From positions 1-39,795 of IMG/VR virus record IMGVR_UViG_3300032285_001914: DNA of 39,795 nt; one strand, given 5' to 3'. Below the pieces are notes generated by a model. That model was given only the letters and a program-made list of their open reading frames with translations. It searched no databases and had not been told where the DNA came from. Source of the stretch: a virus. Shown piece by piece: positions 6,080 through 38,614 of this stretch. The translations under genes and the position numbers were made by a program. Each line of letters begins with the position of its first letter. Position 1 is the first letter of the stretch.

Positions 6080-6520
6080 ATGAAGTTAAACAAGACAATG
6101 GCGTCAGCCGTTGAAGATGCAAGTGGCGGCTCAGGCTTTGAGCCACTACCCGAAGGCGTGTACCCAGTTCGACTACGCGGAGTTGACATTCGCGAAGGAC
6201 AGAAAGCCCCATACTGGGTTTGGGAGTTCGAAATCCCTGAGGGAGAAGAGAACAGCGGTCGTCGCTTCTGGATGAACACCAGCCTAAGCGAAGCAGCACT
6301 GTGGAAGTTGAAGGAAGTCTTCACCGCATTCGGCACAACGCCAGATACCGACACCGACGAATTGCTCGGTAAGCGCGTATCAGCAGTAGTTGTGCAGCGC
6401 GTGATTCAGGCGGGTGCTCGCGCAGGCGAAACCACCAACCAGATCGATCAAGTCCTACCACCGAAGGACGGCGCAGAAGCACCGACTTCAAAGGGCAAGA
6501 CCGACGACTTCGAGTTCTAA
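6080..6520 (+). CDS. DUF669 single-stranded DNA-binding-like protein
   Basis: The 146-aa protein has the layout of DUF669: LPEGVYPVRLRGVDIRE, then WVWEFEIPEG, then FWMNTSL, then a beta-rich segment with GKRVSAVVVQ. The DUF669 family almost always lies beside Sak4-like ATPases and is thought to act as the phage SSB. The C-terminus ends in acidic and aromatic residues (DDFEF), the type of tail that SSBs use to bind partners. It starts 21 bases after the ATPase gene and is followed by a hairpin, so this two-gene unit probably ends here. Confidence 0.85.
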   Translation: MKLNKTMASAVEDASGGSGFEPLPEGVYPVRLRGVDIREGQKAPYWVWEFEIPEGEENSGRRFWMNTSLSEAALWKLKEVFTAFGTTPDTDTDELLGKRVSAVVVQRVIQAGARAGETTNQIDQVLPPKDGAEAPTSKGKTDDFEF

Positions 6521-6538
6521 AAACCCACATACTCAGAG

Positions 6539-6568
6539 GGTCGGCGTTCATCTTGGCGAATGCCGACC
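6539..6568 (+). terminator. Hairpin terminator or attenuator
   Basis: Bases 6539-6549 pair with 6558-6568 over 11 positions with one G-T wobble, around an 8-base loop. It lies 18 bases after the DUF669 stop and 24 bases before the PrimPol start. The T-rich tail (TTCTGTTCT) is poor, so it may only reduce read-through into the primase gene. Confidence 0.6.
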
Positions 6569-6592
6569 TTCTGTTCTCTAGAGAGACCACAC

Positions 6593-8995
6593 ATGCCTAA
6601 TCAAGACACCGCCCTAAAACTCTACGACGCAGGACTCCTGCCACTACCAGCCAAAGGCAAATCGCCAACTGTACCGTGGCGTGACGTAGCCGACAATCGA
6701 CCAAGCCGTGCGCAGATCGCCAGTTGGTTCGACAAAGACCGTAACATCTGGATAGCCACAGGCGTCCCCAGCGGAATCGTAGTAATTGACTGTGACTCAC
6801 GCGGTGGAGACGTGTACTGGCGCGAACGCGTCGGAGCAGAACTGCTCGACATGACCACATGTGTCAAAACCAGCAAGGGCTACCACTACTGGCTTAAACT
6901 ACCAGATGGCGAAACAATGCGCTCTTGGTCCAGCAGTATCTCCCAGCGCGAGAACGGTATCTCCTTTGACATTCGAGGCGACGGTGGTGGCGTCATAGCC
7001 CCGCCCAGCGTCCACGAGTCGGGACACGTCTACGAGTTCATACGAGACCTAAACCACCTAAAGACCGCTCCACTGACCAAAATGCAGCAAGAAGGTGCAG
7101 ATCGAGACGGCGTTGAAGACGGCGGACCGAAAAGCCTGCTGTCCAGCCTGTTATCCGACCCACCAGCCGAAGGCGGACGTGACGTCTGGATAACCCGAGT
7201 GGCAGGACACCTCGCAAAAATCGTCCCCTACCGCGACGCCTACGTGCAGTTGCTACACACCATTAACAACAGCCTCAACGCACCCCTACGCGACGACGAG
7301 ATCGAAAAGAAAGTCGGCGTCTGGGACAAAGAACACGCCAAACCAGACATTCCAACAGCAGACTCAGGTTGGCTGATCGGCGACGGCATGTGGCTGTACA
7401 CCGAAACGCTAACCGAAGTTGCAGGAGCGAAAGTCGCAGGAATTGATCGTTGGTGCAACGCTGACGTTGAAGCCCGTGGCGTGATCGATGGTCCTCTCGG
7501 ACGGACCTACGCAGTTACCGTTCACAGATCTGACGGCGAAGCCCGAGACGACCTGATCAAAGGCGCGATGCTTGGACGCATGAACGACACCCTCGCATGG
7601 CTAGCCAGTCACGGCGTCTCAGTCGTACCACCAAAAAACGACAACCGCGCACGCGTCAGTGCAGGAGCAAGACTGCTGCGCTACCTCGAAAGCCAACAGC
7701 CAACACTGTACAAAGAAGTGCCACACCTCGGTTGGGTTGACGGAATCGGGTTCATCACCCACGAAGGCGTGATCACAGCCGCAGGAATGAAACCGCACGA
7801 AGGATTCATGCCAAGCCCAGCCCTGCAGAACCTCGCCCCAGTGAAATACGGAATGGGCGAAGCAGACCGCGCAGTTGAAGTTCTACGCGAAGTGCTCACA
7901 TTCCACGACGACGTAGTCACCGCTGTGTTCGGGTCGTGGTGGGTAGCCACACTGCTCAAAGGTCAATTCATGGGCGCAGTCGGACACTTCCCGTATTTCG
8001 CAATCGAAGCCGCCAGCGAATCAGGCAAAACACGCGGATTCTTCCGACTGATGCTCAACCTCGCAGGCACAGTGCGCTTCGGCGAATGGACCAAAGCCGC
8101 AACCCGTGACGCAATCGGCGCACACCGAAACGGAATCGTCCACATTGACGACAGCAACCGACTGGACAACATCGCAGATCTGCTCAGGCAGGCAACAGGT
8201 GAAGGCTCAGAAGGAAAGAAAGCCAACGACAACACAGGCACAGTCGACATCAAACTGGTCGCACCAATTCTCGTCAGTGGCGAAAGCCTAGGCGAACTCG
8301 GCGGCGGCGAGAAGGCACAACGCGACAGGCGTGTACTGCTGACCAACGTGCCAAGCCCAGTAGGACGCAAAAGCGTCAAAGGCGACTACCCACAGTGGGA
8401 CGACGTTAAACGACTGGAGCGACTCGAAGGTGACCTGAGCAAATACGCAGGCACAATGGTCATGTTGGCACTTCAGCGTGAACACATGGTCGGCGAAGTG
8501 ACAGATCTGCGCAAAGGACACGGACGTCATCACGAAGTGCTCGCGATCTTGCGATGCTCAGCCCGAATCCTAGCCGACATGGTGGACGACGAAAGCATCG
8601 TCGGACGCGTAGACGCTTGGTGCGAACAGCAACGCGATTTCGGCTCAGAGAACACCCTGATCACCAAACTGCTGCCGTGGGCAATCATCGACGAGTTCGG
8701 CAAAATGGTCGAGCGCATGGGCGGCGAGCCACCAGCGTTCGTCGAGGACGAGATCGTGTACATGCACCCAGACCGCCTAGCGGCGGCTTGGCAGAAAGAA
8801 CTGCGGAAACGTGGTAAGAACGATCGTCTGGATAGTCCAGAAGCCATCAGAGCGCAACTCCGCGCCCTCGGAATAACGGGGTCGGTATTCAAGCGCACTG
8901 GAGTCGGCAGAGACGCTCCGAAAGCCCGTTACGTGGCTCTCGACTCATATTGGTCCGATCGGGTAATCGAAATCGCTAACGGCGGTTGGGAGTAG
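6593..8995 (+). CDS. Primase-polymerase / helicase fusion (PrimPol)
   Basis: The 800-aa replication protein carries an archaeo-eukaryotic PrimPol domain at residues 1-150. Its metal site is seen in VVIDCDSRGG (66-68) and the third motif in DIRGDGGGVIAPPS (126-139), with His98 in SKGYHYW as motif II. A P-loop ATPase follows, with EAASESGKT at 472-480 and Walker B-like GIVHIDD at 514-520, so the protein should both prime and unwind DNA. I chose the ATG at 6593 with its AGAGAG site; an upstream ATG at 6560 lies inside the hairpin. Cyanophage S-2L, a Z-genome phage, also uses a PrimPol. Confidence 0.9.
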   Translation: MPNQDTALKLYDAGLLPLPAKGKSPTVPWRDVADNRPSRAQIASWFDKDRNIWIATGVPSGIVVIDCDSRGGDVYWRERVGAELLDMTTCVKTSKGYHYWLKLPDGETMRSWSSSISQRENGISFDIRGDGGGVIAPPSVHESGHVYEFIRDLNHLKTAPLTKMQQEGADRDGVEDGGPKSLLSSLLSDPPAEGGRDVWITRVAGHLAKIVPYRDAYVQLLHTINNSLNAPLRDDEIEKKVGVWDKEHAKPDIPTADSGWLIGDGMWLYTETLTEVAGAKVAGIDRWCNADVEARGVIDGPLGRTYAVTVHRSDGEARDDLIKGAMLGRMNDTLAWLASHGVSVVPPKNDNRARVSAGARLLRYLESQQPTLYKEVPHLGWVDGIGFITHEGVITAAGMKPHEGFMPSPALQNLAPVKYGMGEADRAVEVLREVLTFHDDVVTAVFGSWWVATLLKGQFMGAVGHFPYFAIEAASESGKTRGFFRLMLNLAGTVRFGEWTKAATRDAIGAHRNGIVHIDDSNRLDNIADLLRQATGEGSEGKKANDNTGTVDIKLVAPILVSGESLGELGGGEKAQRDRRVLLTNVPSPVGRKSVKGDYPQWDDVKRLERLEGDLSKYAGTMVMLALQREHMVGEVTDLRKGHGRHHEVLAILRCSARILADMVDDESIVGRVDAWCEQQRDFGSENTLITKLLPWAIIDEFGKMVERMGGEPPAFVEDEIVYMHPDRLAAAWQKELRKRGKNDRLDSPEAIRAQLRALGITGSVFKRTGVGRDAPKARYVALDSYWSDRVIEIANGGWE

Positions 8996-9087
8996 AAATG
9001 AATCGAATGATGTTCTGGTGGCTCAAACTAGGCTACAAGATGGGCTGAGTCAGTGACGTGGTCTGCTCCACGCACGAAGGTCTACCA

Positions 9088-9165
9088 ATGACAGATCTGG
9101 AAGAACTGGACTGGGAACGAGGCGGCGACCCTTGTGCGCACGTTGTGAGAGTGTGGACATCGTGA
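9088..9165 (+). CDS. Possible small protein, 25 aa
   Basis: A short open frame begins at ATG 9088 with a good ribosome-binding site (GAAGG, 7 bases upstream). The peptide is acidic, with one Cys in GGDPCAHVV. A 16-aa frame at 8998-9048 and a hairpin (9057-9061 with 9068-9072) lie just before it. Coding is uncertain because the region is otherwise regulatory in appearance. Confidence 0.3.
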   Translation: MTDLEELDWERGGDPCAHVVRVWTS

Positions 9166-9401
9166 CACAGACCGTGGCACGGGGTGAGACACAGTTGGAA
9201 CTTGACTACGAGGCTGATTGTGTCTCGGATTCGAACCTATTGGAGCACATATCGTGCCACAGAGGGGTTGAGACACAACAGAACCCGAAACGACGGGCTA
9301 AAAAAACTGGTGTCTCGGTGTCTCATACAAAAAAATAAAATAAGTTACATGCGTGCGCGCGCGCGCCCGAACAGCCCCGTTCACTCCGAAAGGTGAGACA
9401 C
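9166..9401. other. Putative replication origin with TGAGACACA iterons
   Basis: This non-coding stretch between PrimPol and DNA polymerase holds five copies of TGAGACAC or its complement GTGTCTCA, some with one change: 9185-9193 (+), 9220-9227 (-), 9269-9277 (+), 9310-9317 (-) and 9318-9325 (-). A sixth copy at 9394-9402 (+) runs into the polymerase start codon. GTGGCACG near 9174 is matched in inverse by CGTGCCAC near 9253. An A-rich tract (9328-9346) is followed by 20 bases of perfectly alternating purine and pyrimidine (9347-9366, mostly GC repeats). Iterons, a flexible tract and flanking replication genes suggest an origin. Operator sites controlling the polymerase are the alternative. Confidence 0.6.
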
Positions 9402-11243
9402 ATGAAAGTCCTAAAACCAAGCGAAATCCTGCCAGATCTGGAAGGGCTGTACGTAGCCGTAGACACCGAAACCAGCGGACTGTTCGTAGATGATGGCGCG
9501 CGAGTCTCCATTGTTAGTGTGGCGTGGCGCGAAAGTGGACAGCCAAGGCTCGGAGCAGGCATAGTCACCTACGCATTCCCGTTCGACCAAGGACGCTACG
9601 CCGAAAAGACAGGCACAACCGAAAGCGCATTCGACGTCGACTACAACCTTGATCAGACTGAATGGGAGTTCTTACTCCAGTGGCTAACCAAGCACAACCT
9701 GATCATGCACAACGCCAAATTCGACCTGCACATGCTCCGCACAGGCACACGGCACTGGACAGGCGTGAACCTAGTCGACCAAGTCATCTGGGACACCCAA
9801 GTAACACACAACCTGTTCGAACCGCTACTGACCAGCAGCCTCAAGCCCACTAGCGCAAGGTTATTTGGGGAAGATGTGGTGCAAGAAAGCCGCGATATCC
9901 AGAACGCCCTACGCAAACAAGGCACAGGACTAACCAAACGCTACGATCTGGTCGACTGGTCAATCGTCGGACCGTACGCAGCACAAGACACCGCCCTGAC
10001 CCTACGGCTGTACGAATGGCAGCAACGCAGGCTCGAAACCGACGACCAGCACCTCGGAGTTCTCGCCCAGCGCGAAGTCGATCTCATGAAAGTGTTGTAC
10101 AAAATGGAAACCCGAGGCATCGGATTCGACGCCGAACGAGCCGAACAATCCGCCAGCAAACTGCGCGCCCTCAAGATCAAACTGCAAGAACAACTGCCGT
10201 TCAAGCCCACACTGCCAGCCGCCAAACAATACTACTTCGGAGATCTGGGGCTGATTCCTAGCAAAGTTGGCGCAAGTGGAGCACCAAGCCTCGACAACGA
10301 GACCATTAAGAAACTAGCCAAAAAGAACACCCCACACGCCGAGACCTTCCTGCGATGGACCGAAGTGAAAAGCGCACTAGAGAAATGGTACGACAACTGG
10401 GGATCGATGGTCGGACCAGATGGACGGCTGCGCACCTCGTTCCGACAGACTAAAGTGGTCAGCGGTCGCTTGAGTGTCGAACGTGTGCAACTGCAAGCAA
10501 TCCCGCACGACTACCAACTGAACCAATTGTTTGGTGAAGGAGTCGAAGGTGTGCGAGCGTTCTTCCAGCCAAAAGAAGGACACCAACTCTGGGAAATCGA
10601 CATCAGTCAAGCCGAGATCAGAGTCGCAACTGCTGTGGCGCACTGCCAGAACATGCGCGACCGACTGGAAGCAGGACAAGATGCACACGACGCTACAACA
10701 CAGTTGGTGTTCGGAATTGAAAAAGACGACCCTGAATGGGACAAGTACCGATCAGTGGGTAAACGGTTGACCTTTGGCATGCTGTACGGCGCAGGAGTTC
10801 GCACAACCCGCGAACAGATCAAACTGTACACAGGTGTTGACGCTAGTGAAGGTCAAGTACGCGAATGGGTAGAAGCGTACCGAACTGCGTTCCCCGAGTT
10901 CGTGCAAGCAGCAAGGTACGCAGACAACGCTGTGCAAAAACGCGGATATGTTAGACTAATAACAGGGCGGCTACGGCATTGGGGTCTTGATGAACAAGGT
11001 CACAAAGCATTCAACGCTGTTATACAAGGTGGCGTAGCGGAAACTATGAAGATCGCGATGATAGAAGTCGAGACACGGTTTCCAGACATCTTGCTCTTGC
11101 AGATTCACGACTCGATGGTCATCGAAGTTCCTGATGCCGTAGCGCAGTCCGTTGTCATTCAAGTGCGTGACACGTTGACTCAGATCTTCGAGTCGATGTT
11201 CAACATCGAGTTCAAGGCAGACTACAAACAATGGGCAAAATGA
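9402..11243 (+). CDS. Family A DNA polymerase with 3'-5' exonuclease (DpoZ-like)
   Basis: The 613-aa protein is the phage replicase, with the layout of a Klenow fragment and no 5'-3' nuclease domain. Proofreading motifs are intact: AVDTETSG (Asp21, Glu23), NAKFD (Asp108) and YAAQD (Asp196). Polymerase motifs are intact too: motif A with Asp400 (EIDISQAEIR), motif B with Arg450, Lys454, Phe458 and Tyr462 (GKRLTFGMLYG), and motif C IHD with Asp570. In Z-genome siphoviruses a polymerase of this type and size (DpoZ) accompanies PurZ and favours 2-aminoadenine. That preference is inferred here from context. The ATG at 9402 has the strong site AAAGGTGAG. Confidence 0.93.
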   Translation: MKVLKPSEILPDLEGLYVAVDTETSGLFVDDGARVSIVSVAWRESGQPRLGAGIVTYAFPFDQGRYAEKTGTTESAFDVDYNLDQTEWEFLLQWLTKHNLIMHNAKFDLHMLRTGTRHWTGVNLVDQVIWDTQVTHNLFEPLLTSSLKPTSARLFGEDVVQESRDIQNALRKQGTGLTKRYDLVDWSIVGPYAAQDTALTLRLYEWQQRRLETDDQHLGVLAQREVDLMKVLYKMETRGIGFDAERAEQSASKLRALKIKLQEQLPFKPTLPAAKQYYFGDLGLIPSKVGASGAPSLDNETIKKLAKKNTPHAETFLRWTEVKSALEKWYDNWGSMVGPDGRLRTSFRQTKVVSGRLSVERVQLQAIPHDYQLNQLFGEGVEGVRAFFQPKEGHQLWEIDISQAEIRVATAVAHCQNMRDRLEAGQDAHDATTQLVFGIEKDDPEWDKYRSVGKRLTFGMLYGAGVRTTREQIKLYTGVDASEGQVREWVEAYRTAFPEFVQAARYADNAVQKRGYVRLITGRLRHWGLDEQGHKAFNAVIQGGVAETMKIAMIEVETRFPDILLLQIHDSMVIEVPDAVAQSVVIQVRDTLTQIFESMFNIEFKADYKQWAK

Positions 11244-13625: not shown

Positions 13626-14663
13626 GTGGGCAGAGTAAGCGTAGTAGTCGGAGGACAATTCGGCTCAGAAGGCAAAGGCGCAGTAGCAGGCTACCTAAGC
13701 ACCAATAAAGACGAGAACGTCATCGGCGTTCGAGTCGCAGGACCAAACGCAGGACACACAGTGTACGGCGACGGACCAGACGGCGAAATCGGCACATATG
13801 CGTGGAAACTGCGCACAGTGCCAGTCACAGCCGTCACCAACCCAGACAGCAAAATCGTCATAGCCGCAGGCTCAGAAATCGAGTTCGCAGTGCTAGACGA
13901 CGAACTGGACCGACTAGACCGCGCAGGCTACAACGGGACAGAGCGCATTATCATCGACGATCAAGCAACCGTGCTAGAAGATCGACACAAGCAAGTGGAG
14001 CAAGACGCAGATCTGACCGCCTTACTCGGCTCAACCAGCAAAGGCATCGGCGCAGCCCGCGCAGATCGCCTACTCCGAGGAGCGTCCCTAAATGGGGGTG
14101 GCGTTGATACCGCCGCACTACTGGCGCAAGAACTCAAAGACTACAACACCCACGTGATCATCGAAGGCACACAAGGCTACGGACTAGGGCTGCACGCAGG
14201 CTACTACCCATTCTGCACTTCCAGCGACTGCCGAGCCATTGACTTCCTAGCCATGGCAGGCGTGAACCCGTGGCAATACGGAGCAGCCGACGTAGACGTC
14301 TGGGTAGTCGCACGCACCTACCCGATTCGCGTGGCAGGAAACAGCGGTCCGTTGTCAAACGAGACCACATGGGACAAACTGGGCTTCGAACCAGAACGAA
14401 CCACAGTCACCAACAAGATCAGACGCGTAGGCGAATGGGACAGTGAACTCGTACGCGAAGCCGTCCGAGCCAACGGCGGCGCACCGACCGTCAAACTAGC
14501 CCTAACCATGTTCGACTACGTGTTCCCCGAACTCGCAGGTGCTACAATAGTCCCACAAGATCAGAAATACTGGGACTACATCGAAAAGATCGAAAAAGAG
14601 ACAGGAGCGAAGGTTGCGTTAGTTGGCACAAGCCCAACAACAATGGCGTACACCTACCACTAA
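13626..14663 (+). CDS. purZ: PurZ: adenylosuccinate synthetase-like, 2-aminoadenine pathway
   Basis: At 345 aa it is shorter than bacterial PurA (about 430). It should join aspartate to dGMP to make dSMP, the first step toward 2-amino-dATP. The phosphate-binding loop reads GGQFGSEGKG (residues 9-18): Ser14 stands where PurA has a catalytic Asp (WGDEGKGK), the change I recall as diagnostic of PurZ because it makes room for the 2-amino group. GPNAGHTV (39-46), EGTQGYGLGLH (180-190) and TYPIRVAGNSGP (231-242) match other family regions. The GTG start has GGAAGGAAA upstream. It heads a run of nucleotide-metabolism genes, and PurB lies elsewhere in the genome. Confidence 0.93.
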   Translation: MGRVSVVVGGQFGSEGKGAVAGYLSTNKDENVIGVRVAGPNAGHTVYGDGPDGEIGTYAWKLRTVPVTAVTNPDSKIVIAAGSEIEFAVLDDELDRLDRAGYNGTERIIIDDQATVLEDRHKQVEQDADLTALLGSTSKGIGAARADRLLRGASLNGGGVDTAALLAQELKDYNTHVIIEGTQGYGLGLHAGYYPFCTSSDCRAIDFLAMAGVNPWQYGAADVDVWVVARTYPIRVAGNSGPLSNETTWDKLGFEPERTTVTNKIRRVGEWDSELVREAVRANGGAPTVKLALTMFDYVFPELAGATIVPQDQKYWDYIEKIEKETGAKVALVGTSPTTMAYTYH

Positions 14664-16079: not shown

Positions 16080-16495
16080 ACAACAAACTGCTGTACATCG
16101 GAACAGCACCAACACGTGCACATCACGACGACGCGGGCTTCGATCTGTACGTCAATGGCGACTGGACCGTAGAGCCAAACTCGTTCGTAGACATCGACCT
16201 CAACTGTGCAGTGGCGTTCCCAGCAGGAACATGGGGACTGCTCACAGGACGCAGCAGCACACTACGCAAACGCGGACTGCTCGTAGCCCAAGGCATCATC
16301 GACACAGGCTACACAGGACCACTGTTCGCAGGAGTGCAAAACCTGACCAGCAAACCTGTTCACGTTGAGCACGGCGAGCGAATAGCCCAACTGGTAATAA
16401 TGGCGAACCTAGCGATGCTCGTAGAACTGGAAGAAACCACCGAACTACCAGACACAACGAGAGGCGCAAATGGATTCGGTTCAACAGGCAACTAG
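16076..16495 (+). CDS. dut: dUTPase (dUTP diphosphatase), trimeric type
   Basis: The 139-aa protein has all five dUTPase motifs in order: AGFDLY (20-25), GRSSTLRKRGL (58-68), GIIDTGYTG (73-81, catalytic Asp76), GERIAQLV (100-107) and RGANGFGSTG (129-138). It hydrolyses dUTP to dUMP and pyrophosphate, keeping uracil out of phage DNA and feeding dTMP synthesis. It closes the nucleotide block that begins with PurZ. The ATG overlaps the upstream stop by 4 bases. Length and motifs indicate a complete enzyme. Confidence 0.93.
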   Translation: MNNKLLYIGTAPTRAHHDDAGFDLYVNGDWTVEPNSFVDIDLNCAVAFPAGTWGLLTGRSSTLRKRGLLVAQGIIDTGYTGPLFAGVQNLTSKPVHVEHGERIAQLVIMANLAMLVELEETTELPDTTRGANGFGSTGN

Positions 16496-17054
16496 CCCAA
16501 AAGACAACAACCGCTTAAGCACGACCCTTAGACAACTCGCAACCCTATACAAAGACCTCAAAACGCATCTGCAGCCTTCCAATAGCCTTTCTCGGGGCGG
16601 AAGAAGTACTCCGAGCAGCCGCCCGCCGATACGCATTGACGTGCTGGACCTGATCATCGAGATCGAATACTGTGCGCACGTGTGGACTCATCGGGCGCGA
16701 GTGCTGGCTAACATCGACCCGCTCACCTCACGAATACGAGACACCGATCTGATGTTGTATTGGGTGGCGGACTACGCTTCCACAACAGACGCACTAGACA
16801 TGGTAGGGGAGACAGCAGCAGATCTGGTCGCACGTGCGAAACTCGCAGTAGGCGAAACCGAACGCCCACAGAAACTGGAGATTCACTGTCCCTACTGCAA
16901 CAGCCGACTGCGTGCATATCCAACGCAAGGTGTCGTGTTCTGTGTGAACAAAGAATGCAAATGCGACGACACCGAATGCAAACACAAACACAGATGGACT
17001 GAACTGGAATGGCAAGATCTGGGATTGCTTATTCAACTGCAAGGCACAGATTGA
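16470..17054 (+). CDS. Hypothetical protein with C-terminal zinc ribbon, 194 aa
   Basis: It starts inside the end of dUTPase (26-base overlap) with GAGAGG upstream. The N-terminal 140 residues look helical and include YCAHVWTHRARVL. The C-terminal part has CPYC, then CVNKEC and further CKCDDTECKHKH, enough Cys and His for one or two zinc ions. Proteins of this layout are commonly encoded just before the small terminase in actinophages. The ending HRWTELEWQDLG suggests a nucleic-acid or protein-binding zinc finger. The exact role is unknown. Confidence 0.8.
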   Translation: MDSVQQATSPKDNNRLSTTLRQLATLYKDLKTHLQPSNSLSRGGRSTPSSRPPIRIDVLDLIIEIEYCAHVWTHRARVLANIDPLTSRIRDTDLMLYWVADYASTTDALDMVGETAADLVARAKLAVGETERPQKLEIHCPYCNSRLRAYPTQGVVFCVNKECKCDDTECKHKHRWTELEWQDLGLLIQLQGTD

Positions 17055-38377: not shown

Positions 38378-38614
38378 ATGGCTGTAACGAACGAGGAGTT
38401 CGCCGAGCGCGTAGGCGTGCATTTCACTATGGCGTCGCGAATGCGTAATGGCAACCGACTCCCAAGCGTGAAGACGATGATCAGCATTTCGAATGCGTTC
38501 GATCTTAAGATGGACGACCTGTCCGACGCGTATGCGGCTGGTCCAGATCAGTTCGGGGAGTTCTTGCGAGAGAATATCTTCGACTCTATTCCCAATCCGA
38601 GTCTAGTAGCCTAG
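38378..38614 (+). CDS. XRE-family helix-turn-helix regulator, 78 aa
   Basis: The N-terminal 55 residues match the Cro/CI fold: NEEFAERVGVHFTMASRMRNG as helices 2 and 3 with the recognition helix, then RLPSVKTMISISNAFDLKMDDL. The protein is short, with no peptidase or dimerisation domain beyond a 20-residue tail, so it is more like Cro than a full repressor. Its own promoter holds a palindrome of the right size for a dimer. It stands at the boundary between the late genes and the small-gene operon and may control early transcription. Confidence 0.85.
   Translation: MAVTNEEFAERVGVHFTMASRMRNGNRLPSVKTMISISNAFDLKMDDLSDAYAAGPDQFGEFLRENIFDSIPNPSLVA

Follow-up and report, generated by a model that had tools for sequence, protein, structure and literature searches.

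Where does DNA replication begin in a phage that very probably carries 2-aminoadenine DNA, and could the short non-coding gap between its PrimPol and DNA polymerase genes be the starting point? The question is raised by IMG/VR virus record IMGVR_UViG_3300032285_001914, whose 39,795 bases were analysed as a whole and are referred to here as the window. In the open-access literature found, represented mostly by its listings and in part by passages (including PMC7102993, PMC8065100, PMC8342488, PMC12884076 and PMC8599871), neither the replication start of 2-aminoadenine phages nor an origin of the type considered here in such phages is described. The replication block of the window is ordered as exonuclease, Sak4-like protein, DUF669-like protein, PrimPol, gap and family A polymerase, with PurZ further on, its main features being:

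6080-6520, DUF669-like protein gene, neighbour of PrimPol
6560-8995, + strand, PrimPol, with AEP Prim-Pol domain, PriCT_1 helix bundle, Walker-A-like ESGKT region and C-terminal predicted winged helix; proposed initiator
8663-8992, + strand, PrimPol C-terminal domain, winged-helix-like by prediction, proposed repeat reader
8996-9401, non-coding gap from PrimPol to polymerase; no other gap of the window has a repeat cluster
9402-11243, + strand, family A DNA polymerase of DpoZ type (NCBIfam DpoZ_2, 353.8 bits against a cut-off of 350)
13626-14663, + strand, PurZ, which makes the 2-aminoadenine precursor (NCBIfam, 336.6 bits against a cut-off of 300)

The protein encoded upstream of the gap is a member of the PrimPol (AEP) family, both the Prim-Pol (Pfam, 3.7e-23) and the PriCT_1 helix-bundle (4.6e-9) domains being present above cut-off. 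PurZ and DpoZ also exceed their NCBIfam cut-offs, DpoZ narrowly, as does a PurB-type adenylosuccinate lyase at 1717-2997 (337.5 against 326.2); thus, the window genome very probably carries 2-aminoadenine, in agreement with the initial annotation. An annotated lyase is likewise found in Ghobes and Archimedes. PurZ was detected in 27 of the 33 virus records of this PrimPol class that were searched (G000 and 32 others, covering part of the 39 clusters described below), a strong association of the class with 2-aminoadenine phages. Elsewhere in the window, 16470-17054 encodes a DUF7341 protein weakly matching the zinc-finger region of NAD-dependent DNA ligase. Regarding the polymerase, the ORF listing gives an in-frame GTG at 9393 as its start, but ATG 9402 appears likelier, since the matching GTG in one close relative (L003, see below) is out of frame with the ATG.

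Within the gap, the 7-mer GAGACAC occurs six times, three per orientation, over 216 bp, which agrees with the stretch of about 220 bases initially described between both genes. The early description of six copies of one word in both orientations stands for this common 7-mer; the exact TGAGACAC accounts for four of them, while the other two read CGAGACAC. The elements of the gap are arranged as follows:

9160-9402, conserved origin-like cassette, non-coding DNA aligned with two close relatives
9162-9168 and 9174-9180, two palindromic GTGNCAC motifs, possible degenerate sites
9185-9192, + strand, repeat 1, TGAGACAC
9220-9227, - strand, repeat 2, CGAGACAC
9254-9260, third GTGNCAC motif, conserved as GTGCCAC or GTGTCAC
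9269-9276, + strand, repeat 3, TGAGACAC
9310-9317, - strand, repeat 4, CGAGACAC, in tandem with repeat 5, GTGTCTCGGTGTCTCATA being invariant in three genomes
9318-9325, - strand, repeat 5, TGAGACAC
9321-9350, A/T-rich segment, candidate unwinding region
9346-9366, purine-pyrimidine alternation of 21 bases
9367-9393, conserved block after the tract, aligning locally to the gaps of Goodman, JackieB and Intolerant
9394-9401, + strand, repeat 6, TGAGACAC, overlapping the ribosome-binding region and touching ATG 9402

These six copies form the densest 7-mer cluster of the window, and a comparable one is absent from all its other non-coding gaps. When 60 genomes were simulated, the maximum number of copies of a 7-mer per 250 bp was 3 in 39 of them, 4 in 20 and 5 in a single one. 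Over the whole window, GAGACAC is found 11 times, and the count of the exact TGAGACAC is unremarkable (5 against 2.3 expected, with 8 of 100 shuffles reaching 5).

The A-rich stretch reported after the repeats is present, 25 of the 30 bases at 9321-9350 being A or T. The perfect alternation reported next to it is also real and is the longest of the window, although its extent had to be corrected from 20 bases (9347-9366) to 21 (9346-9366). Its length alone proves little, because 9 of 100 simulated genomes contain a run of at least 21; it is notable because it is conserved in relatives. Among three genomes, 6 of 20 aligned columns of the tract vary, all by transitions, which represent 47% of the differences elsewhere in the cassette (P about 0.01 if columns are independent). 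In other relatives the letters differ and the alternation is kept, as in L155 at +137 and L166 at +135, and in most Korravirus genomes the tract directly follows the A/T-rich segment. Very long tracts, rich in CA/TG steps, were also observed 3' of the PrimPol stop in L146 (+115, 43 bases) and L128 (+217, 33 bases).

The three genomes just mentioned are the window and two metagenomic relatives, IMGVR_UViG_3300032242_001495 (L002) and IMGVR_UViG_3300028392_000269 (L003), whose polymerases are 78% and 75% identical to that of the window. Between the tandem repeat and the end of the tract, a stretch that includes the A/T-rich segment and a TAAAAT-like box, the three show no insertion or deletion, and the genes upstream of the cassette in L003 differ from those of the window. 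In this latter record (also L083), about 1.7 kb of small genes separate PrimPol from the cassette, which stays with the polymerase. The search for the same repeats in related phages, advised at the outset, thus found the block kept in both relatives, and other words in more distant ones. The exact 17-mer GTGTCTCGGTGTCTCAT matched only these two known relatives in IMG/VR, and nothing was matched by 8800-9700 in an INPHARED DNA search or by 8900-9600 in Rfam. The block that follows the tract reaches further: when the window or L002 served as reference, an alignment as good to the gaps of Goodman, JackieB and Intolerant was never reached in 300 shuffles, and with L003 the same held for Goodman (0/300), with P of 0.007 for JackieB and 0.017 for Intolerant. 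Most of the other gaps tested showed no alignment to it beyond P 0.02. PrimPols of these three phages are 31-32% identical to that of the window, and a repeat placed after the tract, like repeat 6, is also found in JackieB, Intolerant and Microdon.

Equivalent gaps were then compared across more distant genomes. A 7-mer cluster beyond simulation (P<=0.015) was present in 15 of the 24 gaps examined (window, L002, L003, Preamble, Greenhouse, Bennie, Urla, Ghobes, Archimedes, Hiyaa, Galactica, Goodman, Microdon, Intolerant and Olihed), while the other nine (Aledel, Pumancara, Joann, Herb, Parvaparticeps, Cicada, Htur, JackieB and Aramis) showed no significant one; the longest alternating run of the locus fell in the gap in 12 of the 24. 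Each lineage appears to use its own word, as illustrated by GGGTAAC in Hiyaa (11 copies, in both orientations, over 350 bp), and by TCTAGCA in Goodman, GTGAACA in Ghobes and GACACAC in Olihed, with six copies each. When restricted to annotated records, at least four copies in 300 bp were found in 7 of 12 candidate gaps and in none of 14 other non-coding gaps, and the same split was obtained for an alternation of at least 12 (Fisher P 0.0012 in each case), the candidate gaps being longer on average than the others.

In the wider survey, 75 of 78 IMG/VR PrimPol loci were entered (L144, L172 and L184, with their match at or near the locus end, were omitted), and the 71 with a PrimPol stop were grouped into 39 clusters, with 70% identity across the 300 C-terminal residues as threshold. 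In 14 of the 39 clusters, one 7-mer reached more copies in the 500 bp that follow the PrimPol stop than in every other window of the locus; random windows achieved this in 0 of 39 clusters for 15 of the 16 trials and in 1 of 39 for the other. The longest alternating tract of the locus lay in the same 500 bp in 16 of the 39, against a random mean of 1.26 and a maximum of 5 over 200 trials. Eight clusters showed both features and 22 at least one, relative to control windows of any coding state, the non-coding control being the smaller annotated-gap set above. The window's own cluster counts here as a miss, because its representative, L108, has the cassette at a displaced position. Nonetheless, location 3' of PrimPol is not a universal rule, since 25 of the 39 clusters fail to beat all their controls and 9 of the 24 gaps lack a significant cluster. 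Differences in placement were also seen: Ghobes and Archimedes have the cluster beside the polymerase block instead of beside PrimPol, whereas in Hiyaa, Goodman and JackieB it lies 3' of PrimPol and away from the polymerase start.

Which protein might read the repeats is addressed by the Korravirus gaps, where seven of seven aligned sites read TGTAAC in Urla and Greenhouse and TGTTAC in Preamble. Bennie has six of these seven sites, and Aledel, Herb, Pumancara and Joann present mixtures (alignment A2 omits Pumancara, which is nearly identical to Herb). Such a concerted change of word points to one reader protein for all copies. The DUF669-like neighbour is unlikely to be this reader, because it is 95% identical between Urla and Preamble despite their differing words. 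As for PrimPol, its family profile had pRN1 ORF904 as sole match in the PDB (E 5e-4), and its C-terminus is weakly predicted to form a winged helix. An earlier model of this region (pLDDT 50.8) was too poor for structure search; the AF2 model built on a 52-sequence alignment, with a mean pLDDT of 61.7, shows the order b-b-a-a-b-b-a, and 51 of 54 loci entered alignment A5 (L134, L082 and L113 were left out). This low-confidence model gave weak matches, mostly to winged helices, with a best Z of 5.0 and values of 4.2 for SaPIBov1 Rep (8tch), 3.7 for Orc1 and 3.5 for Cch (5dgk), and Foldseek on the second model returned nothing at E<=0.001. In 5 of the 7 pairs compared, conservation of PrimPol is at or close to its lowest in the 60 C-terminal residues (0.60-0.77 against 0.86-0.92 overall). 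The link between word and C-terminus is weak: Urla and Bennie, which share their word, differ in that region about as much as Urla and Preamble.

Taken together, we consider the cassette at 9160-9402 to be a replication origin with PrimPol as its repeat-binding initiator, with a probability of roughly 70%. Features of iteron-type origins are found here, namely a repeat cluster in a non-coding gap 3' of PrimPol and an A/T-rich segment beside the repeats; GC skew showed no turn at the cassette. PrimPol, encoded just upstream, would bind the six GAGACAC repeats through its C-terminal winged helix, and its helicase part would assemble on the cassette DNA. PrimPol would next melt the A/T-rich segment adjoining the alternating tract and synthesise primers at this site, which DpoZ, the polymerase of the neighbouring gene, would extend. 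We infer the role of PrimPol as binder, the start of replication at this site and the order of these steps. The origin proposed in the initial annotation is backed by comparison, the block being kept in two relatives and two-orientation repeats and long tracts occurring 3' of PrimPol far more often than in random windows, but not by the argument from a 2-aminoadenine genome that accompanied it, discussed below.

Among other readings, the one that survives best, though we judge it unlikely, is that the repeats are operators at which a repressor or activator controls the polymerase operon, with the A/T-rich segment as promoter and a hairpin formed by the tract at the mRNA 5' end. It would account for repeat 6, which overlaps the ribosome-binding region and, as initially described, abuts ATG 9402, as well as for the indel-free spacing from tandem repeat to TAAAAT-like box to tract in the three genomes, and a small HTH_3 protein encoded at 38378-38614 could provide the regulator. 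However, no sigma-70-like promoter was found at 8950-9500, the HTH gene has none of the window's 11 GAGACAC in its vicinity, and the eleven two-orientation copies spread over 350 bp in Hiyaa are many for an operator. Moreover, repressor sites alone, the outcome that would have spoken against an origin, fit worse with Hiyaa, Goodman and JackieB, whose cluster is found 3' of PrimPol, away from where the polymerase gene begins. The repeats may also serve both as origin and as operator.

Less probable still is that the repeats are template start sites for the PrimPol primase rather than docking sites. According to the accessible passages of the respective reports, NrS-1 PrimPol starts at TTTGGTTA and GTG sites (PMC8718748) and the pRN1 primase at GTG, although pRN1 GTG mutants still replicate (PMC4234260). 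CAC/GTG lies inside every GAGACAC and is over-represented across the cassette (17 occurrences, mean 8.9), but GTG/CAC is missing from the words of other genera (TCTAGCA, GGGTAAC, CTTACCA and CAGAACA), so that GTG priming was set aside as their general meaning. Least probable, by a little, is another cis-acting site for packaging, recombination or partition, where two-orientation repeat clusters also occur: exonuclease and Sak4 genes are close by, but the position of the cassette tracks replication genes, and no terminase gene is among the ten genes scanned around it.

Returning to the origin with PrimPol as initiator, the contribution of the alternating tract deserves separate consideration. 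Z:T pairs are harder to melt, and the initial annotation had reasoned that an origin in a 2-aminoadenine genome may depend on other structures, such as a left-handed tract, in place of easily melted AT-rich DNA. This rationale found no support, since the A/T-rich segment persists, tracts occur in four of the six records with no detected PurZ (L112, L132, L146 and L178, two of them short records), and Hiyaa and Galactica have PurZ and no long alternating tract. The tract may nonetheless have a structural role, because 2-aminoadenine lowers the cost of Z-DNA formation, as stated in a review (PMC9867160). The tract may be left-handed DNA, part of the opening region or a protein site. We tentatively propose, as a possibility that we hold to be doubtful, that in origins of PrimPol replicons the alternation itself, and not its letters, is selected: tracts some 10 to 43 bases long, which in several lineages directly follow the A/T-rich segment, would become left-handed or otherwise unwound under negative supercoiling, helping the PrimPol initiator to open the origin, an effect that could matter most with 2-aminoadenine. 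If the tract is structural, it would represent a conserved non-B element at phage origins.

As judged from sequence comparison, these data suggest that relatives share a start-site design in which each lineage has its own repeat word. They give a testable location, a lineage repeat word and a candidate initiator for cultured phages, and a simple rule for origin hunting in PrimPol phages, which is to look 3' of PrimPol.

Known systems resemble parts of this arrangement, here compared as far as the accessible text of each source describes them. In phage NrS-1, too, there is a PrimPol, and the specific sequences at which it starts have been proposed as origin; however, its genome contains two copies of an 8-nt site, and neither a cluster nor an alternating tract is described in that text. 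ORF904 of pRN1 is likewise a PrimPol protein, and pRN1 has GTG/CAC motifs and an essential region, its putative origin, 3' of the PrimPol gene (PMC4234260), but that element is a large stem-loop devoid of iterons, whereas the window cassette has them. A large stem-loop of the pRN1 type was rejected for the window, the DNA fold of 9130-9402 having a z of -1.57 with 17 of 200 shuffles folding as well. Phage P4 alpha, likened by description, is also a multidomain primase-helicase whose winged helix binds repeats, its primase being of the TOPRIM type and not AEP as here (PMC4234260). In SaPIs, the origin directly follows rep, and its iterons are recognised by the C-terminus of Rep (PMC7581432). 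As in SaPIBov1 Rep/ori and SCCmec Cch/Cch2, the window would combine an initiator helicase, with a C-terminal DNA-binding domain (here proposed), and short repeats directly downstream. The DUF927-type helicase domain of the SaPI/Cch initiators was weakly matched in 4 of 20 relatives and unmatched, at E 10, in the 511 C-terminal residues of the window PrimPol. Overall, the cassette is best read as an origin of the SaPI/P4-like iteron type, with binding, initiation and left-handed DNA as presumed components, which differs from SaPI and Cch in that its proposed initiator is fused to an AEP primase-polymerase, it belongs to a phage encoding PurZ and DpoZ, and its A/T-rich segment is followed by an alternating tract.
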